Shown piece after piece: positions 4,917 to 63,354 of a stretch of 64,000 nt of DNA (within the stretch, counting starts at the first letter, position 1; every line of letters begins with the position of its first letter). The DNA comes from a virus, in IMG/VR virus record IMGVR_UViG_3300036861_000330, positions 1-64,000 of that record; one strand, given 5' to 3'. The position numbers and the translations under genes are program-made. The notes under the pieces are model-generated. The model was not told where the DNA came from. It was given only the letters and a program-made list of their open reading frames with translations, and searched no databases.

Positions 4917-5654
4917 CCATATGAGTGCGTACTGACGGTTCGGTCGGTTCCTACAAAACCCAACAGGTAATGATACAAAGGAACTTGGCAATGCAAGAAC
5001 GAATTGGTTCCCAAGAAATGGCCGAACGTGCGGTGAGTACGTACCGAAACGGTTTTGAGTTTCTCGGAGCTGGTTCATTCCGTTCCGCGTACCTGGGGCC
5101 AGACGGGTTTGTCTACAAAGTGAACCATAACGGCGACTCGCAAATGCAGGCACGCGAGGCAAATGCGTTTGCGCGGTTGCAGGAAAAGGGTTACTCCTGG
5201 GCACCGCAGTACACGCTTTGGGAAACGCAGAACGGCGACGTGGTTGCCATGCCAAAGTATGGGCAAGCTCCTATCACGGAGTTCTATTCCAGCGACGAGT
5301 ATGCTGAAATGAGTCGCCTTATGTACGACGTGAAAGCTACAAACGCCGGCACGCGCGAGGATGGCTCCTACGTGTTGCTTGACGGCGGTGGCTATAGAAA
5401 TTCCGTGTCTCCGTTTACCGACGAGAATAACGACTCTGATGATGATTTCGATGCTTGGGACAACGACTTCGATAACGACTTTTTCAAATTCGATAACGAC
5501 TTCGATAACGACTTCGATAACGATTCTAACGCCACTACTCTGATGACTACTCCGTTGACTACGGCAAGTGTCACTGTCCTGTTTGTGAACGTTCTCCCCG
5601 AGGCACGTGATAGTACGTAGCGACGTGCCGAATCGTCAGTTCGCATTCATATGG
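4917..5654 (+). repeat. Module 5 inverted repeat (arms 4917-4943 / 5628-5654)
   Basis: The 27-bp arms start CCATATGA and end TTCATATGG; 24 of 27 match. The exceptions are two G-U wobbles and one central U-U (GCGTACTG opposite CAGTTCGC). Encloses the gene 4991-5620. Confidence 0.8.
4991..5620 (+). CDS. Truncated protein-kinase-like protein with Asp/Asn repeat tail
   Basis: Start set at the ATG 8 bases after AAAGGA; an ATG at 4970 is an alternative. The N-terminal lobe resembles a protein kinase: FLGAGSFRSAYLG (glycine-rich loop), VYKV (candidate ATP-binding Lys), a Glu-bearing helix, then MPKYG as hinge. The catalytic loop is missing and only a YVLLDGGG segment recalls the metal-binding Asp, so an inactive or minimal kinase is likely. 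From about residue 155 a D-N-D-F repeat follows. In the -1 frame after the repeat the sequence encodes CHCPVCERSPRGT ending at TGA 5608-5610, a Cys tail that looks more protein-like than the in-frame end. Confidence 0.55.
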   Translation: MQERIGSQEMAERAVSTYRNGFEFLGAGSFRSAYLGPDGFVYKVNHNGDSQMQAREANAFARLQEKGYSWAPQYTLWETQNGDVVAMPKYGQAPITEFYSSDEYAEMSRLMYDVKATNAGTREDGSYVLLDGGGYRNSVSPFTDENNDSDDDFDAWDNDFDNDFFKFDNDFDNDFDNDSNATTLMTTPLTTASVTVLFVNVLPEARDST

Positions 5655-7586: not shown

Positions 7587-7669
7587 GCAGTATATTGTAC
7601 CGGGTACAACGATGTGGTTGAAACAGACCATCGCGGTGAAGCGTTGTTGTACCCGGTACAGTGTACTGC
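7587..7669 (+). repeat. Module 9: short inverted repeat without a gene
   Basis: Arms 7587-7610 and 7646-7669 pair over 24 bp; the only two differences are G-U wobbles in + strand RNA. Each arm contains the near-palindrome TGTACCSGGTACA. The 35-nt loop has no gene, so this looks like an empty module. Confidence 0.75.
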
Positions 7670-9079: not shown

Positions 9080-9817
9080 ATGACAAAGACACAAGTCACC
9101 GCGTACGATGAAGCGGCCGAGACACTTGGCAAGCGACAGTCCAGAAAAGTCGGCAACAATACCTATCTGCGACGGCGCGATGAGCACACCATCGCAGTCA
9201 AACTCCACGCAACCGATGTTGTGGTTTTCAACTCAGACGGCACTGTGACACTCCACGACGGTGGCTATTTGACACCCACAACAAAAGACAGGATCAACAC
9301 GTATCTTCCGCGCCCGTACAGGGTGTACTCCGACCGTGGGCAGTGGTACCTCTACGAGTACAGTACTGAACACGGTACGCAAAAGGTCTTTCCGTACTTC
9401 GACGGTATTCGCCTTGCGTTTAACCCGTTGCGAGCAGTGAATGCCAGCGACGGGCCAGACATTGCCAAGCGTGAAAAAGAAAATGCCAAGCTCAAGCGTG
9501 AGATCAACGCCTATGTCGCGCTCTACACAAACGAGCGAGTCAAAGAGCTGCTCGAGTCGGAAACGACAGCCGGTGACTGCCTCTTCTGCCAGTTCACAAC
9601 GGAAGGCGACTCGGTTGGTGATGTAGTTGGTGACGTAAGCCATTTGCGTTACCACCTTGCCGAAAGCTACACGATGATTTCCACGCTCTATAATGCTGTC
9701 AAGGCAAAAGGATACGCAAATCCTGCTGTCATTCTGCGTTATAGCCCGGACTTGGCACGGCGGGCACTTGCTACCTACCTCCGGAATCACTTGCTAAGTG
9801 GCGTCCAAACGAGGTAG
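9080..9817 (+). CDS. Conserved phage-type hypothetical protein, 245 aa
   Basis: ATG after GAGGTAAACGAA. The N-terminal half has the DGTVTLHDGGYLTPTTKDRI pattern that I associate with a family common in actinobacteriophages and some bacteria (function unknown). The middle is a charged helix (KREKENAKLKREINAYV). Residues about 167-171 form GDCLFC, followed by an H...H segment (HLRYHLAE), a candidate zinc site. Confidence 0.7.
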   Translation: MTKTQVTAYDEAAETLGKRQSRKVGNNTYLRRRDEHTIAVKLHATDVVVFNSDGTVTLHDGGYLTPTTKDRINTYLPRPYRVYSDRGQWYLYEYSTEHGTQKVFPYFDGIRLAFNPLRAVNASDGPDIAKREKENAKLKREINAYVALYTNERVKELLESETTAGDCLFCQFTTEGDSVGDVVGDVSHLRYHLAESYTMISTLYNAVKAKGYANPAVILRYSPDLARRALATYLRNHLLSGVQTR

Positions 9818-11691: not shown

Positions 11692-12177
11692 ATGGTAACA
11701 GCAGTGGAGTCACCGATCGCTAACGTGACGATTGACGAGTTAGTTCGTGAGCCAGTCACGAAGGCACTAGAACTTATTGTAGAGTACGGTAGGCCGGATC
11801 TCGTTTCGATGATGAGTAAGTTACCAGGCGGTTGGCGAATTTACCAGTGTGGGCCTCCTGTCGCGAGGTGTGAAACGGAGGTCCAAGCTGTAACGGTAGC
11901 GTTTCTTGGAACAACCGTAGTAAATTTGGACAATATTCGTGGTGAAGCGAATCATCTACTCGTGGATTTCATTCCGCATCTGGCAGCGGTCCTTGTGCAT
12001 GAGTTCATGCACTTTACAACAAAGGGCGAAACCGAAACCGTTCCTATCATCATTTCAGCTCAGTTTTTGAACGGTATTCCTGGCCAAACGACACACGCGA
12101 TGTATATGTTGAGCCAGCTTAGCCAGCTCAAGCACAGTGGTGACTGGAAGTTTCAGCCGAACGAGGTAGTGGCATGA
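11692..12177 (+). CDS. HExxH-type putative metallopeptidase, 161 aa
   Basis: ATG after AAAAAGGTAACTGAT. Contains LVHEFMHFTT near residues 102-111, a zinc-binding HExxH with hydrophobic surroundings typical of gluzincin-like peptidases; a downstream Glu (GETETVP) could be the third ligand. Activity is inferred from the motif alone. Its stop overlaps the next ATG. Confidence 0.65.
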   Translation: MVTAVESPIANVTIDELVREPVTKALELIVEYGRPDLVSMMSKLPGGWRIYQCGPPVARCETEVQAVTVAFLGTTVVNLDNIRGEANHLLVDFIPHLAAVLVHEFMHFTTKGETETVPIIISAQFLNGIPGQTTHAMYMLSQLSQLKHSGDWKFQPNEVVA

Positions 12178-12336
12178 ACAAGGGATTACAGTACTTATAC
12201 CAAAAAGAACGTAGTAAAGGCTTGCCGGCACGGATCGCACTGTCATATGCATGGTCAGTATATGGGCCAGTGCTGGGCTGCTGCGACAGTGCTCTGGACT
12301 GCGATTTGTGGTGCAGCAGCGCTTGGAGATTACTGA
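12174..12336 (+). pseudogene. Small membrane protein split by a +1 frame change
   Basis: ATG within ATGA opens MNKGLQYLYQKERSKGLPARIALSYA, a start pattern common in small phage proteins. In the +1 frame 12247-12336 encodes MGQCWAAATVLWTAICGAAALGDY, a transmembrane helix with a proper end. The zero frame stays open further but overlaps a better gene. A frameshift, or two overlapping peptides, would explain this. Confidence 0.4.
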
Positions 12337-12337
12337 G

Positions 12338-12559
12338 ATGGACCCAAGTAAGCTTGACTACGTTGGCGTTCCACTCTGGCGATATGTCGAGATGGAAAAG
12401 CCATACGTGGTTGTTGATACAAAGGATGTCGAACCAGGCGAGCAGTGCCCAGTACTTGGGTGGTTTGATACCGAACAGGAAGCGTCCGAGTTTATTGGTA
12501 CACTGCCAGAATACGAGACTGGACGGTACGGTCTCGATGGTCCACCAGATGACGTGTAG
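12338..12559 (+). CDS. Hypothetical protein, 73 aa
   Basis: ATG 9 bases after GGAG, directly past the TGA at 12334-12336. Acidic (VVVDTKDVEPGEQCPVLGWF). Unrecognised. Confidence 0.65.
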   Translation: MDPSKLDYVGVPLWRYVEMEKPYVVVDTKDVEPGEQCPVLGWFDTEQEASEFIGTLPEYETGRYGLDGPPDDV

Positions 12560-12719
12560 TGCATTAGCAAAGCGCAATTTTGGAAAGGGTGCTGGCCGCT
12601 GCAATGCAGAACTGCGCAACGGCCAGTGCCCAAATGCCAGTAACCACGTGACCAATAAGTACACGGCAACCATTCGCGCGTACAGAAATGAGCTTAAGAA
12701 AGCGTTTTCCAGGAGGTAA
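12549..12719 (+). CDS. Small Cys/His protein, 56 aa
   Basis: ATG overlaps the end of the previous gene. The arrangement MTCSALAK ... GRCNAELRNGQCPNASNH suggests a C-C-C-H zinc site, with a basic helical tail. The pattern recurs in phage small proteins. Confidence 0.6.
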   Translation: MTCSALAKRNFGKGAGRCNAELRNGQCPNASNHVTNKYTATIRAYRNELKKAFSRR

Positions 12720-12720
12720 A

Positions 12721-12966
12721 ATGTATGCGAACGTTGACGTGATTGTAGAAGGCGCACTGGACAGCTACCTTGTTTTCGATAGCCAGCACGCCCTTGACGA
12801 GTACATAGAGCTGTCGATCAATGATGCAAAAGCAAATGCGTTGCACATGGAGATCTATGTGCAGTGGCATGACCACGAAATGACGCATGAGGAATGTGCG
12901 TGTGCACAGTACGAGATGAACCACCACCCGTACGCAACCTACTGCCCAAAAGAGAAATGCCAGTGA
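12721..12966 (+). CDS. Hypothetical protein with Cys/His tail, 81 aa
   Basis: AGGAGGTAAA directly precedes the ATG. C-terminal half is rich in His, Glu and Cys (HDHEMTHEECACAQYEMNHH), likely metal-binding. Stop overlaps next GTG. Confidence 0.65.
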   Translation: MYANVDVIVEGALDSYLVFDSQHALDEYIELSINDAKANALHMEIYVQWHDHEMTHEECACAQYEMNHHPYATYCPKEKCQ

Positions 12967-13268
12967 GTACCAACGTCACGGCGCAAAGCGAAATTCCTGA
13001 CGCACCCTACTACGTACTGTCCAATGACACGTTCATGAGCGGTTGGGGTCTGGCGAAAGGAAAGACCAACACACTGATCTTTCCGTGCGAGACTCGTGAG
13101 GAAGCGGAAACCGTACGAGAGAACGCATTGTACAGGACGGATCAAAAGCGTGTACGAGTTCTCGTGCGCAAGCCACAACTGCGGACAAGCAGAGTCTATT
13201 ACTCACTAACGGATCGTGAGGAAGCAGAGGCGTGGTACACGCCAGGCGCATGGAAGGACTACGAGTAA
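12963..13268 (+). CDS. Hypothetical protein, 101 aa
   Basis: GTG within GTGA. Two similar segments (TREEAETV and DREEAEAWY) each follow a beta strand, suggesting an internal duplication. Unrecognised. Confidence 0.65.
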   Translation: MSTNVTAQSEIPDAPYYVLSNDTFMSGWGLAKGKTNTLIFPCETREEAETVRENALYRTDQKRVRVLVRKPQLRTSRVYYSLTDREEAEAWYTPGAWKDYE

Positions 13269-13351
13269 TGGACGCAACAACGGTTGGCATCATTTGTGTA
13301 CTTGTTGTTATTATTCTACATGGTATGTATAGAGATTTTGGTGAGAAATAA
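13268..13351 (+). CDS. Membrane peptide, 27 aa
   Basis: ATG in TAATG; one helix (TTVGIICVLVVIILHGMY). Confidence 0.45.
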   Translation: MDATTVGIICVLVVIILHGMYRDFGEK

Positions 13352-13353
13352 TA

Positions 13354-13512
13354 ATGGTCATTATCGTCATTGCAGTCCTTGTCTTGTGGGCAGTCGGGTA
13401 CGCAGCCAACAAGATTAGCATTGCAATTGCAGCAGGCAAGTCAGGCACAAAGCCACGTGACATTCGTAAGGCACGCGCGATCAAGCACGAGCTGAAAGGC
13501 AGCATCAAATGA
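13354..13512 (+). CDS. Small membrane protein, 52 aa
   Basis: N-terminal helix (MVIIVIAVLVLWAVGYAA) then a basic tail (KPRDIRKARAIKHELKGSIK). A further 13-codon frame starts in its ATGA stop. Confidence 0.55.
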   Translation: MVIIVIAVLVLWAVGYAANKISIAIAAGKSGTKPRDIRKARAIKHELKGSIK

Positions 13513-13556
13513 CGCTTGCCTGGTGGTTATGTGCAGTGTTCTACGAATAGCACCAG

Positions 13557-13629
13557 TCCGACGTAGCTCAGTGGAAAGAGCAGTGGTTTCCTAAGCCATA
13601 TGTCGCAGGTTCAATTCCTGCCGTCGGAA
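13557..13629 (+). tRNA. tRNA-Arg (CCT)
   Basis: Acceptor TCCGACG/CGTCGGA; anticodon loop TTCCTAA; T arm GCAGG-TTCAATT-CCTGC. One of two CCT genes. Confidence 0.9.
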
Positions 13630-13632
13630 CAA

Positions 13633-13783
13633 GGGAAGCAACGCACCAAGAAGAGTTGTGCCGTGGTCACACCAAACCCGTCATGACAAGACTAAGTGCG
13701 TTGCTTCCCACAATGCTCGTAGGGGCAAGTTGAAATAACTACGTCCGGATTAGCGACGTTAAACTACACACCCCCCTACGAGC
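13633..13783 (+). ncRNA. Two consecutive stem-bounded RNA elements between tRNAs
   Basis: GGGAAGCAACGCAC (13633-13646) pairs perfectly with 13696-13709; GCTCGTAGGGG (13715-13725) pairs with 13773-13783. The second loop contains a further ACGTC/GACGT stem. No reading frame fits. A structured RNA, or empty modules of the inverted-repeat kind, is inferred. Confidence 0.5.
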
Positions 13784-13808
13784 CCCCTAATGCCCACAGG
13801 GGTGGCAG

Positions 13809-13881
13809 TCCGAGGTAGCACAACTGGCGGTGCAGCGCGCTGTTAACGCGACGGTTGCGAGTTCGAACCTCGCCCTCGGAG
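13809..13881 (+). tRNA. tRNA-Asn (GTT)
   Basis: Acceptor TCCGAGG/CCTCGGA; anticodon stem GCGCG with loop CTGTTAA; T arm GCGAG-TTCGAAC-CTCGC. Confidence 0.9.
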
Positions 13882-13909
13882 CACAAAGGAAAGGACGGCA
13901 CAAAAACAA

Positions 13910-14122
13910 ATGCCAACACCAGCACAACGTCTGCAAGAGATCCTTGGCGACGACGAACTAACCGACAAAGATACGCTGACATACACGTGGGACCACGGCT
14001 ACGAAGTGGTGACAGTAACCCACAGTGGCGGTGGTAAACTGGAATACCGAGGCGTGTTCCACCCAGATGGTGTCTGCGAAGGCAATCCATGTCACCACTG
14101 TGGAAAAGCGTTTTACGAGTAA
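13910..14122 (+). CDS. Hypothetical protein with CxxC end, 70 aa
   Basis: ATG follows AGGACGGCACAAAAACAA, a leader shared with several genes of 13.9-15.2 kb. C-terminus PDGVCEGNPCHHCGKAF offers Cys and His ligands for a metal. Unrecognised. Confidence 0.65.
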   Translation: MPTPAQRLQEILGDDELTDKDTLTYTWDHGYEVVTVTHSGGGKLEYRGVFHPDGVCEGNPCHHCGKAFYE

Positions 14123-14127
14123 CGTGG

Positions 14128-14200
14128 TCCGGCGTAGCTCAATGGAGAGAGCACCTGTTTCCTAAACAGGAGGTTACGGGTTCAAATCCCGTCGTCGGAG
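14128..14200 (+). tRNA. tRNA-Arg (CCT)
   Basis: Acceptor TCCGGCG/CGTCGGA with one G-U; anticodon stem CCTGT/ACAGG, loop TTCCTAA; T arm ACGGG-TTCAAAT-CCCGT. Confidence 0.9.
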
Positions 14201-14202
14201 CG

Positions 14203-14459
14203 GTGGCAGCCAACCGAAAAACAGGAGCTACGAACCTGTAAGTAGGTTGTCGTCTGAGCATGCCCGATACCGTAGCTGCCACGCGGTGCAGTATTCGGGT
14301 AATCGGCCTAGCGTAGAGGGCCGTGCTAGTGGATGACGCGGAGCGGGATGGCATAAACCCGCTTGTCTAGCGGTGCCAGATGAACGCAGTGATGCGTCAA
14401 TTGCTAGTGGGGAAGGCGGAGCGACAGCCGGTGAAGTAGTTCCAGCGCTTCGCCTTCCC
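14203..14459 (+). ncRNA. Structured RNA candidate, about 257 nt
   Basis: A chain of stems: GTGGCAGC/GCTGCCAC closing AACC/GGTT and ACAGG/CCTGT; CGGCC/GGCCG (14304-14323); AGCGGG/CCCGCT (14342-14363); and a 14-bp stem starting GGGAAGGCG (14410-14423 with 14446-14459, one G-U). No coding frame. It lies between a tRNA and a protein gene; no known RNA family was recognised. Confidence 0.55.
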
Positions 14460-14488: not shown

Positions 14489-14557
14489 ATGTCAGAGGCA
14501 ATAAACGGAAAAACATTTGGTGCAGAATGGGGAAGCTATGAACGACATTCGACATGA
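14489..14557 (+). CDS. Peptide, 22 aa
   Basis: ATG follows AGGACGGCACAA. Begins MSEAINGKTFGAEWGSYERH and overlaps the next gene. Supported mainly by the shared leader. Confidence 0.35.
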   Translation: MSEAINGKTFGAEWGSYERHST

Positions 14558-20134: not shown

Positions 20135-20210
20135 TGCGATCGTTGGTTAACGGATAAACCACCAGTCTTCTAAACTGGGCATATGTGGGTTCGAGTCCCA
20201 CCGATCGCAC
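20135..20210 (+). tRNA. tRNA-Arg (TCT)
   Basis: Acceptor TGCGATC/GATCGCA; anticodon stem CCAGT/ACTGG, loop CTTCTAA; T arm TGTGGG-TTCGAGT-CCCAC. Confidence 0.9.
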
Positions 20211-20212
20211 GG

Positions 20213-20350
20213 TGCAACGGTGTTACTTGTCTGGTTGGCGCTCGTACAGGCCGTAATTTGCGATCTAGCACCGTTGCATCACCTGGCACAGGGAGAGGAC
20301 TTTCCGCGGCGCTTTCACAGGCCATACTACAAGTTGCACTCTCCCTGTGC
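20213..20350 (+). ncRNA. Paired hairpins with a conserved loop motif
   Basis: Stem 1 TGCAACGGTG/CACCGTTGCA (20213-20222, 20269-20278) and stem 2 GCACAGGGAGAG/CTCTCCCTGTGC (20286-20297, 20339-20350) differ completely in sequence, yet both loops hold GGCGCT-nnn-ACAGGCC-n-TA (20237-20255, 20308-20326). Unlike stems around a conserved loop argue for a selected RNA structure. Confidence 0.6.
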
Positions 20351-20362
20351 CATCAACCTATC

Positions 20363-20405
20363 GGCGCCTATTACATGAGCGAAAATCTGCGATCTCCGCG
20401 GCGGC
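20363..20405 (+). repeat. GGCGCC/CGAAAATCT repeat, 1 unit, degenerate end
   Basis: GGCGCC ... CGAAAATCT, closing with GCGGCGGC instead of GGCGCC. Confidence 0.7.
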
Positions 20406-20412
20406 AACAATT

Positions 20413-20483
20413 GCGGTTGTAGGTTAACGGTAAACTATCTGTCTTCCAAACAGAAATTGCGGGTTCGATTCCCGCCAACCGTA
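20413..20483 (+). tRNA. tRNA-Gly (TCC)
   Basis: Acceptor GCGGTTG/CAACCGT; anticodon loop CTTCCAA; T arm GCGGG-TTCGATT-CCCGC. Confidence 0.9.
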
Positions 20484-20502
20484 CAATGGCCATACAAATA
20501 AA

Positions 20503-24423: not shown

Positions 24424-24726
24424 AGCGCCTTTCGAAACGGCGAAAAGCTAAGAACCTGTCGGCGCCTGTACATGACACGAACATCTGCTGTGGAAGCGGC
24501 GCCTGGATGAGGAACGAAAATCTATTGATCCTACGGCGCCTATGATAACGGCGAGAGTCTATTGATCCGACGGCGCCTATGATACCGGCGAGAAGCTGAA
24601 ATGCCCCCGGCGCCTACTATGAAGGCGAAAGTCTAGTACCTCCCCGGCGTCTGTCGAGCGGGCGAAAAGCTAATAACTGACCGGCGCCTAGGGCAGCATC
24701 GAATGTCTAAAGCTCGACGCGGCGCT
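24424..24726 (+). repeat. GGCGCC/CGAAAATCT array, 8 units
   Basis: Cores vary between CGAAAATCT and CGAAAAGCT. Boundary variants AGCGCC at the start and GGCGCT at the end. Two neighbours share TATGATA beginnings, indicating recent duplication. Confidence 0.92.
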
Positions 24727-25941: not shown

Positions 25942-26250
25942 ACTCGACGGGAGTCTACGGCCACTCGTGAGAGCCCGTTAGGAGGGCGCCCACGACGACT
26001 CCCGTCGAGTACAACGCCAAGGTAGTTGGTAGCCAAAACAAACAAGAGCGAGTGCAACAGTGACTCCTTGTCACCAGGCTTGAAACCTGGCCACTGTGTG
26101 CGTTGGAGCCGTACGTACTTGCAAATGCGTTTACAGGGCACCGAGCAGCTCCATCGTACCGAGTACATACGCGGATGTGTCCAACTGTTCACCGCGCACG
26201 ACCACTGCACTGACTTGTGAATTTTGGTGAGGGTGGGACAGGGGACCACC
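25942..26250 (+). ncRNA. Structured RNA candidate after the DIP1984-family gene
   Basis: ACTCGACGGGAGTC (25942-25955) pairs perfectly with 25997-26010. Then CAACGC/GCGTTG (26012, 26100) encloses CAGTG/CACTG and CCAGG/CCTGG with loop CTTGAAA, which looks like an anticodon stem but lacks other tRNA arms. A distal CCAAGG/CCTTGG pair may close the whole. Confidence 0.45.
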
Positions 26251-45123: not shown

Positions 45124-45463
45124 GGCGCTTACAGGCTTAGCGAAAATCTACCGATGCGTCGGCGCCTATAGGATGCCCGAGGATCTACAAGGAGTGGCGG
45201 CGCCTATTAGTGGAGCGAAAATCTGACGCCTAACCGGCGCCTGTACAAAAGACGAGAAGCTGTTACTGACTCGGCGCCTTTTCACTGAGCGAATATCTAT
45301 TGAGCTTCCGGCGCCTACTACTGGTGCGAAAATCTAGTCAAGCCCCGGCGCCTACTAGACCGCCGAAGATCTAAAGGCTGGGCGGCGCCTAATCAGCGGA
45401 CGAAAATCTGCGAGCCTGTCGGCGCCTTTCACGATGTCGAACATCTACGGCAACAACGGCGCC
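45124..45463 (+). repeat. GGCGCC/CGAAAATCT array, 9 units
   Basis: Very regular 37-bp period with mostly perfect CGAAAATCT cores; spacers all different. Ends at the duplicate of the 44782 sequence, where the next gene begins in place of the core. Confidence 0.92.
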
Positions 45464-55028: not shown

Positions 55029-55643
55029 ATGCCAAGACGAAACAACCCACCAGAACGGAGGCGAGCGGTGGTAAAGACAAGACCAGAAGCTATCGCTCGC
55101 CAGCCGTTCACAGTACTGAAAAACCTTAACGGACTGCGTCTCACTACACCAGCCGTCGTGATGCTTGAACCGAAGTTCGTCAACAACATCGGGTCAATGA
55201 TTCGCAACTGTGCATGCTTCGGTGTTGAGTATCTGATCTATACAGGAGACCGGGTTGACATCCCCACAGGTGGGAAGGGCGACCGGCTGCCACGCCAGGA
55301 GCGCATGCGGCAGTACCAGACAGTGAAAGTTGTCAACGTGGATTTTCCAATGTCGTTCTTTCCTCCTAGTACCGTACCGGTTGGCGTTGAGCTGACACCG
55401 TCGGCGATGCCACTGCCACTGCTTGACCACCCGACCAGTGCCGTGTATATTCTCGGCCCTGAAGACGGCTCAGTCCCAGCGGGATGGCGCGAACTGTGCC
55501 ACCACATTGTACAAATTCCGTCGGAACACTGTCTCAACGTGGCACAAGCTGGTGGCATTGTGTTGTACGACCGAATGGTCTCACGGTGGCGAGCTGGCAG
55601 AGGACAGTTATTGACACTTCAAGAGGACCGTGGTCATGGATAG
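55029..55643 (+). CDS. SPOUT (TrmH/SpoU-type) RNA methyltransferase
   Basis: A 204-aa protein. VMLEPKFVNNIGSMIRNCAC (motif 1 with N-x-G-x3-R), VYILGPEDGSVPAGW (motif 2) and VQIPSEHCLNVAQAGGIVLYD (motif 3 with the AdoMet-binding knot) are all present. Family members methylate 2'-OH or bases of tRNA or rRNA; with about 40 tRNA-type genes nearby a tRNA target is plausible. Basic N-terminal extension. Confidence 0.85.
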   Translation: MPRRNNPPERRRAVVKTRPEAIARQPFTVLKNLNGLRLTTPAVVMLEPKFVNNIGSMIRNCACFGVEYLIYTGDRVDIPTGGKGDRLPRQERMRQYQTVKVVNVDFPMSFFPPSTVPVGVELTPSAMPLPLLDHPTSAVYILGPEDGSVPAGWRELCHHIVQIPSEHCLNVAQAGGIVLYDRMVSRWRAGRGQLLTLQEDRGHG

Positions 55644-61463: not shown

Positions 61464-61533
61464 GTGACGGGGCAGAGCAAACACGAATACGGTGTGCCAG
61501 TTGCGTGAGCGGCAACCAGCTCTGCCCCGTCAC
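61464..61533 (+). ncRNA. 15-bp stem-bounded intergenic element
   Basis: GTGACGGGGCAGAGC pairs perfectly with 61519-61533; inside, GTTGC/GCAAC. Lies between two secreted-protein genes. Not followed by a T run. Confidence 0.55.
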
Positions 61534-62792: not shown

Positions 62793-62888
62793 TGGCACTG
62801 AGCAACAGCACTACATGGAGCTAACGTAGCACAACGTCTATGCAGAAGCCGAAAATCTAAAGGAACGGCGGCGTTGTAACACACAAAG

Positions 62889-62938
62889 TCCGACCCTACC
62901 TGGAAGGTCTCGCGGCGGCGAGCAGGTAGGGTCGGACA
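62889..62938 (+). ncRNA. 15-bp hairpin between arrays
   Basis: GTCCGACCCTACCTG pairs perfectly with 62924-62938; an inner CTCGC/GCGAG helix tops it. A degenerate repeat unit precedes it and the large array follows. Confidence 0.55.
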
Positions 62939-62943
62939 TCTTT

Positions 62944-63354
62944 GGCGCTTAATGACCGGACGAAAATCTGTGATACAGTCGGCGCCTATAGAAGCCTCGA
63001 AAATCTAACGCTGAAACGGCGTCTATGAACCTGACGAAAATCTAGCCCGACACCGGCGCCTACGCATGGGACGAAAGTCTGCTCGAACCTCGGCGCCTAT
63101 TAGAAGTACGAAAATCTGTGATAGTGTCGGCGCCTACGCGGTTTGCGCAAAGCTAGAGTGTACGCGGCGCCTGCTACATTTCGAATGACTAGGGGATCTC
63201 GGCGCCTGACACGAACGCGAATATCTACAGCAGGTTCGGCGCCTAGGGACTCTGCGAAAATCTATATCCGGCTCGGCGCCTAGGGACTTAGCGAAAATCT
63301 ATATCCCACGCGGCGCCTATGGACTCAGCGAAAATCTAAGTTTGGCCCGGCGCT
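62944..63354 (+). repeat. GGCGCC/CGAAAATCT array, 11 units
   Basis: Longest regular array. Most cores are perfect. Two neighbouring units share TAGGGACT before and TATATCC after the core, showing tandem duplication followed by divergence of spacers only. Confidence 0.93.

Follow-up and report, generated by a model that had tools for sequence, protein, structure and literature searches.

What do two adjacent hairpins do between two tRNA genes of a phage? Phage tRNA arrays are widespread, and the excision of dozens of tRNAs from one transcript is poorly understood. The locus lies in a 64,000-nt stretch of DNA (positions 1 to 64,000 of IMG/VR record IMGVR_UViG_3300036861_000330, hereafter the window) of a 103,156-bp phage contig, and the window holds 37 tRNA genes as found by ARAGORN. 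A tRNA-Arg gene with anticodon TCT (20136–20210, plus strand) was identified by ARAGORN, by Rfam family RF00005 and from its sequence. It does not encode CCA, and its discriminator base directly abuts the start of hairpin H1 (20211–20280, plus strand), which is followed by hairpin H2 (20284–20352, plus strand). Between H2 and the next tRNA gene downstream, a tRNA-Gly with anticodon TCC (20413–20484, plus strand; ARAGORN), stands one unit of a genome-wide repeat (GGCGCC-n-CGAAAATCT-n-GGCGGC, 20363–20405, plus strand). The same phage also carries a gene for a SpoU-family RNA 2'-O-methyltransferase (55029–55643 of the window).

Both hairpins, which an earlier note had read from the sequence, were confirmed by folding and by comparison with shuffled sequences. 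The arms of H1 (inverted repeat I2; 20211–20225 and 20266–20280) form 15 bp including two G·U pairs around a 40-nt loop, with an uninterrupted Watson-Crick core of 10 bp (20213–20222 and 20269–20278), and none of 200 shuffles equalled its minimum free energy (MFE) of -29.6 kcal/mol (z -4.19). H2 (inverted repeat I1) pairs 20284–20297 with 20339–20352 over 14 bp with no mismatch, leaving a loop of 41 nt; its MFE of -34.1 kcal/mol (z -4.71) was likewise reached by 0 of 200 shuffles. The span of 20213–20350 given earlier located the hairpins correctly, but its end fell 2 nt short. The whole-stretch fold predicted three separate domains, namely tRNA-Arg, H1 and H2. H1 is followed by ACCTGGC and H2 by TCAACCTATC; because no U-run stands behind either, neither hairpin qualifies as an intrinsic terminator. 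No tRNA or tRNA-like cloverleaf with T and D loops was found at 20211–20352 by ARAGORN or RF00005. An Rfam cmscan of the whole window matched tRNAs only, and a relaxed threshold yielded only chance matches; no Rfam family matched H1 or H2.

The two loops share a stretch, GGCGCTCGTACAGGCCGTA in H1 (20237–20255) and GGCGCTTTCACAGGCCATA in H2 (20308–20326), with 15 of 19 positions identical. It starts 11 nt inside the loop of H1 and 10 nt inside that of H2, as the earlier note had proposed with its 19-nt motif at similar spacing. This likeness was matched by 4 of 20,000 shuffled pairs in register and by 27 of 20,000 in any register, figures that concern only the adjacent pair H1/H2 picked by the earlier note; their true significance is weaker because of that choice and because GGCGCY is common in the genome. 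When all hairpin loops were compared with one another, the pair was not outstanding (score 11 versus shuffled maxima of 12–17.5). The pattern GGCGCT-nnn-ACAGGCC is present in both hairpins, and in both MFE folds most of it forms a stem-loop of its own: GGC is joined to GCC and CU to AG, with a bulged G between GGC and CU, and nnnAC is left as a loop of 5 nt. The predicted inner stem-loops, which coincide with direct repeat D2, read GGC-[G]-CU-cguAC-AG-GCC in H1 (20237–20252, plus strand) and GGC-[G]-CU-uucAC-AG-GCC in H2 (20308–20323, plus strand). Their CU/AG pairs are less certain, because the centroid structures keep the GGC/GCC pairs alone.

The earlier statement that the stems share no sequence goes too far. 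When the stems of H1 and H2 are lined up from their bases, 7 of 13 positions are identical (p about 0.04), and the remaining six, read from the sequence, are all double changes that preserve pairing. The simplest reading of this comparison is that H1 and H2 are a diverged tandem duplicate of one RNA module. Because no close relative with the locus was found, the covariation seen here is that of two paralogous copies.

We searched for the loop motif elsewhere. The 103-kb contig contains two exact copies, those of H1 and H2. An exact-pattern scan of IMG/VR gave at least 119 stretches, most of them in one recurring coding context that reads GAVTGRMTH and by eye resembles phage DNA polymerase; no flanking arms above 9 bp were present among the matches listed, and no tRNA genes at the 60 match loci scanned. 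A narrower pattern gave 10 matches in IMG/VR, nine of which had no long arms; at the tenth (L146), a hairpin scan found no hairpin. In five related records, allowing two mismatches gave 5 matches, no more than a reversed-pattern control, and a comparison of the H1 and H2 loops with those of 738 hairpins from related phages gave no score beyond the shuffled maxima. As far as the collections searched show, the loop motif thus appears private to this contig, which is one half of what the earlier note had named as refuting its proposal of a selected RNA (no further homologues and no expression).

The hairpins themselves belong to a larger, over-represented class. In the window, 10 exact inverted repeats have arms of 11 bp or more and loops of 20–150 nt, where eight first-order Markov simulations averaged about 0.9. 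These simulations reproduce the dinucleotide composition of whole stretches and treat coding and intergenic DNA alike. A relative (G001), whose DNA polymerase is 62% identical, has 14 in its tRNA region, L139, versus about 0.75 simulated, and in 1.19 Mb of contigs with related polymerases 69 distinct repeats reached 12 bp or more, versus 11 in one simulation. Two control phages with tRNA arrays, Cece (1 inverted repeat, about 1 expected) and LuckySocke (3, about 0.4 expected), suggest that the class is not general to such phages and may not be unique to this lineage. Since most loops in the window measure 35–49 nt, most of its hairpins are 59–77 nt long; the loops of the other hairpins in the contig are mostly unrelated. 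Among mismatched stem positions, G·T stood to A·C as 9:1 (window) and 6:3 (relative) under the strictest setting, and as 14:7 and 6:4 under the loosest; these numbers are small, and the excess of G·T points to RNA of the plus strand. The stem of H2 also has GCACAGGG, comparable to the CCACAGGG/CCCTGTGG of several long stems, which recurs exactly or in close variants at 2554, 4866, 11156 and 12790 of L139, 14998 of the window and 14041 of L132. This common stem sequence hints at a recognised sequence in a subset of the hairpins.

Several members of the class stand at tRNA 3' ends. Four repeats begin within 3 nt of one, whereas 0.11 would be expected over all positions and 0.24 within the 300 nt after tRNAs. 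In the window these are H1, behind tRNA-Arg(TCT), and a hairpin 3 nt after tRNA-Arg(CCT) (13633–13709, plus strand; 14 bp, loop 49 nt, fold z -6.65); in L139 they begin at 5277 after tRNA-Arg(CCT) and at 9293 after tRNA-Ala. Behind the other 35 of the window's 37 tRNAs no hairpin of this kind is present, so the hairpin is not a general requirement for processing. Tandem pairs recur as well: the hairpin at 13633 is followed by another (13715–13783, plus strand; 11 bp, loop 47 nt, fold z -4.50), as H1 is by H2, and L139 has pairs at 12719 and 12790 and at 14546 and 14604.

The two L139 cases are related structured elements of about 145 nt (5277–5419 and 9293–9439), each filling the gap between two tRNAs and ending 3–7 nt before the next one. 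They share the loop blocks AGwGCTATrCGAAAGyGCCCGG and GCCGGTAAGCC while their stems differ, and aligning their loops gave a score of 16, towards the upper end of the range of shuffled maxima (12–17.5). Neither element had a match in Rfam, and the one searched against INPHARED phages, that at 9293, had none there. The pair is suggestive of an independent case of the pattern seen in H1 and H2, to which the second shared block adds support. The earlier view of a selected RNA therefore divides: for the hairpin class it gains from the excess of inverted repeats, the preponderance of G·U over A·C, the placement at tRNA 3' ends and the relative's independently shared loops in unlike stems, but for this particular loop motif the support is weak, with two copies in one contig and no homologue detected elsewhere.

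Taking these observations together, we tentatively favour, at somewhat less than an even chance, an insulating and processing role for H1 and H2 at the 3' end of tRNA-Arg, as cis-acting RNA spacer modules. The H1+H2 module would be transcribed inside a polycistronic tRNA precursor, where, we infer, each module serves in cis as a spacer that folds by itself. Its long stem would prevent the trailer from misfolding with neighbouring tRNAs and could block exonucleases. It might also present the trailer for an endonucleolytic cut, made either by RNase Z where the 3' end lacks CCA or by an RNase III-type enzyme in the stem; RNase III usually prefers longer duplexes, which counts against the latter. 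The inner bulged-G stem-loop, GGC[G]CU-nnnAC-AGGCC, could, speculatively, be a protein-recognition site. If the hairpins do serve as spacer or processing modules, they would represent a simple layout of RNA alone: tRNA, hairpin, tRNA.

A purely tRNA-specific role is unlikely, because similar hairpins occur away from tRNAs, all on the plus strand: between genes (7596–7660; 15 bp, loop 35 nt, fold z -6.14), directly after a stop codon (25942–26010; 14 bp, a 41-nt loop with its own inner hairpin, z -4.77) and in what is apparently a 5' UTR, judging from an inferred start site (61464–61533; 15 bp, loop 40 nt, z -6.04). Seen in this light, the class resembles a general set of modules in the intergenic parts of polycistronic transcripts. 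It is conceivable, though we hold it to be rather doubtful, that the hairpins form an unrecognised, lineage-specific set of RNA modules whose long stems can be exchanged freely while each module has an inner motif of its own. Set exactly between tRNA genes and in further gaps between genes, they would process or regulate polycistronic tRNA and mRNA transcripts, perhaps together with an RNA-binding factor dedicated to them. The pattern across the class, in which stems are interchangeable, inner motifs are conserved across a phage lineage and Rfam has no entry, suggests a reservoir of undescribed phage RNAs.

Other explanations fit parts of the evidence. H1 and H2 could be stable small RNAs, co-transcribed with tRNAs and acting in trans once released; they might, for instance, decoy host anticodon nucleases or bind a phage or host protein. 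Their predicted autonomous folding, their tRNA-like length (69–70 nt) and the common inner stem-loop with its bulged G would suit such a function, and non-tRNA RNAs are known from phage tRNA clusters. That of T4 carries RNAs C and D, stable RNAs which resemble H1 and H2 in lying within a tRNA cluster but are larger. ROOL and GOLLD, which are non-coding structured RNAs, occur near tRNA islands of phages and prophages; they are very large, multi-helix and cage-forming, GOLLD often exceeding 800 nt (PMC12286853). H1 and H2 are simple hairpins of about 70 nt with no match to the ROOL or GOLLD Rfam models, so the likeness is one of tRNA neighbourhood only. We regard trans action as unlikely, since the hairpins have neither a tRNA-like T or D loop nor an Rfam match nor a loop homologue, and no Ro-type RNA-binding gene was found. 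A Ro-binding Y RNA was considered and rejected, as the TROVE domain (PF05731) is absent from G000, G001 and G002, contigs that may be incomplete. About as unlikely, in our estimate, is that a palindromic DNA element was duplicated in tandem, neutrally or selfishly; recent quasipalindrome correction would then account for the perfect stems and recent copying for the similar loops. That there are two copies only, without homologues, in a contig whose other hairpin loops are mostly unrelated agrees with this; the two G·U pairs in H1, the class-wide excess of G·T over A·C, the non-random placement at tRNA 3' ends and a clade-wide hairpin of the same type with heavy compensatory change (see below) do not.

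Two further readings appear less probable still. The put RNA of phage HK022, an antiterminator, consists of tandem stem-loops in the phage transcript, and an analogous cis-acting antiterminator or pause element could let polymerase read through a long tRNA operon. Tandem hairpin pairs do recur in the window and in L139, and H1 and H2, with no U-run behind them, are not intrinsic terminators. Each hairpin is about twice the size of a put RNA hairpin, however, and differs from it in sequence; the tandem pairs have no visible conserved sequence, and some lie far from tRNA runs. We consider antitermination improbable. The least credible reading, to which we give very little weight, is that the 3' end of the tRNA is produced by a self-cleaving RNA. 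Theta ribozymes, which are HDV-like, occupy the 3' ends of phage tRNAs lacking an encoded CCA and cut after the discriminator base (PMC10879173). H1 too sits directly behind a CCA-less phage tRNA, starting at 20211, right behind the discriminator base at 20210 and hence at the theta cut site, well within 5 nt of the tRNA 3' end. In the nested double pseudoknot of HDV, which has a catalytic C, the 5' strand pairs internally; H1 instead has one long terminal stem joining its 5' strand to its 3' terminal strand, and no Rfam ribozyme family matched at the gathering or the relaxed threshold; we therefore rejected a theta ribozyme here.

A hairpin family was observed in phages with related polymerases. 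It has a variable outer stem of 14–18 bp, a GAGGGA-like 5' bulge and a variable inner stem, and lies mostly 1–2 kb after the DNA polymerase gene. Members include 62884–62942 of the window and L162, L165, L169, L172, L188, L194, L202, L203, L207, L212, L224 and others. In this family 12 of 13 outer pairs have changed on both sides, and a covariance model retrieved three members beyond its training set. Separately, L128 encodes at 11928–14387 a terminase-like protein that, read from its translation, is apparently interrupted by an intein.

The repeat unit found between H2 and tRNA-Gly is one of 94–98 units of 37-nt period (CGGCGCCTA-n9-CGAAAATCT-R-n8-C), nearly all on the plus strand, that extend over 15013–63831 of the window (e.g., 24424–24720, 45124–45460 and 62944–63350). 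A search for the A-B-A repeat in bacterial genomes gave one match, apparently a chance occurrence in coding DNA. The earlier note had likened the start of the shared loop to this repeat, a link that finds no support beyond one 6-mer: H1 and H2 have GGCGCT, but they lack both the CGAAAATCT box and a second GGCGCC at about 37 nt. In H1 and H2, the partner of GGC(G)CU is AGGCC, at a distance of 5 nt, whereas in the repeat (GGCGCC-n-CGAAAATCT-n-GGCGCC) the boxes can pair with each other across a loop of about 31 nt. Box variants are C>T in 25 cases versus G>A in 4, a skew not seen in spacer composition, and in 90 of 98 units all six pairs between neighbouring GGCGCC boxes are kept if G·U is allowed. 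From these features, the repeat resembles an RNA hairpin unit whose loop carries CGAAAATCT. Single units also occur on the minus strand of a second phage contig, L123 (IMGVR_UViG_3300036861_000154), at six places near structural genes, and the one at about 8873 of the reverse strand lies, by eye, inside a long variable stem.
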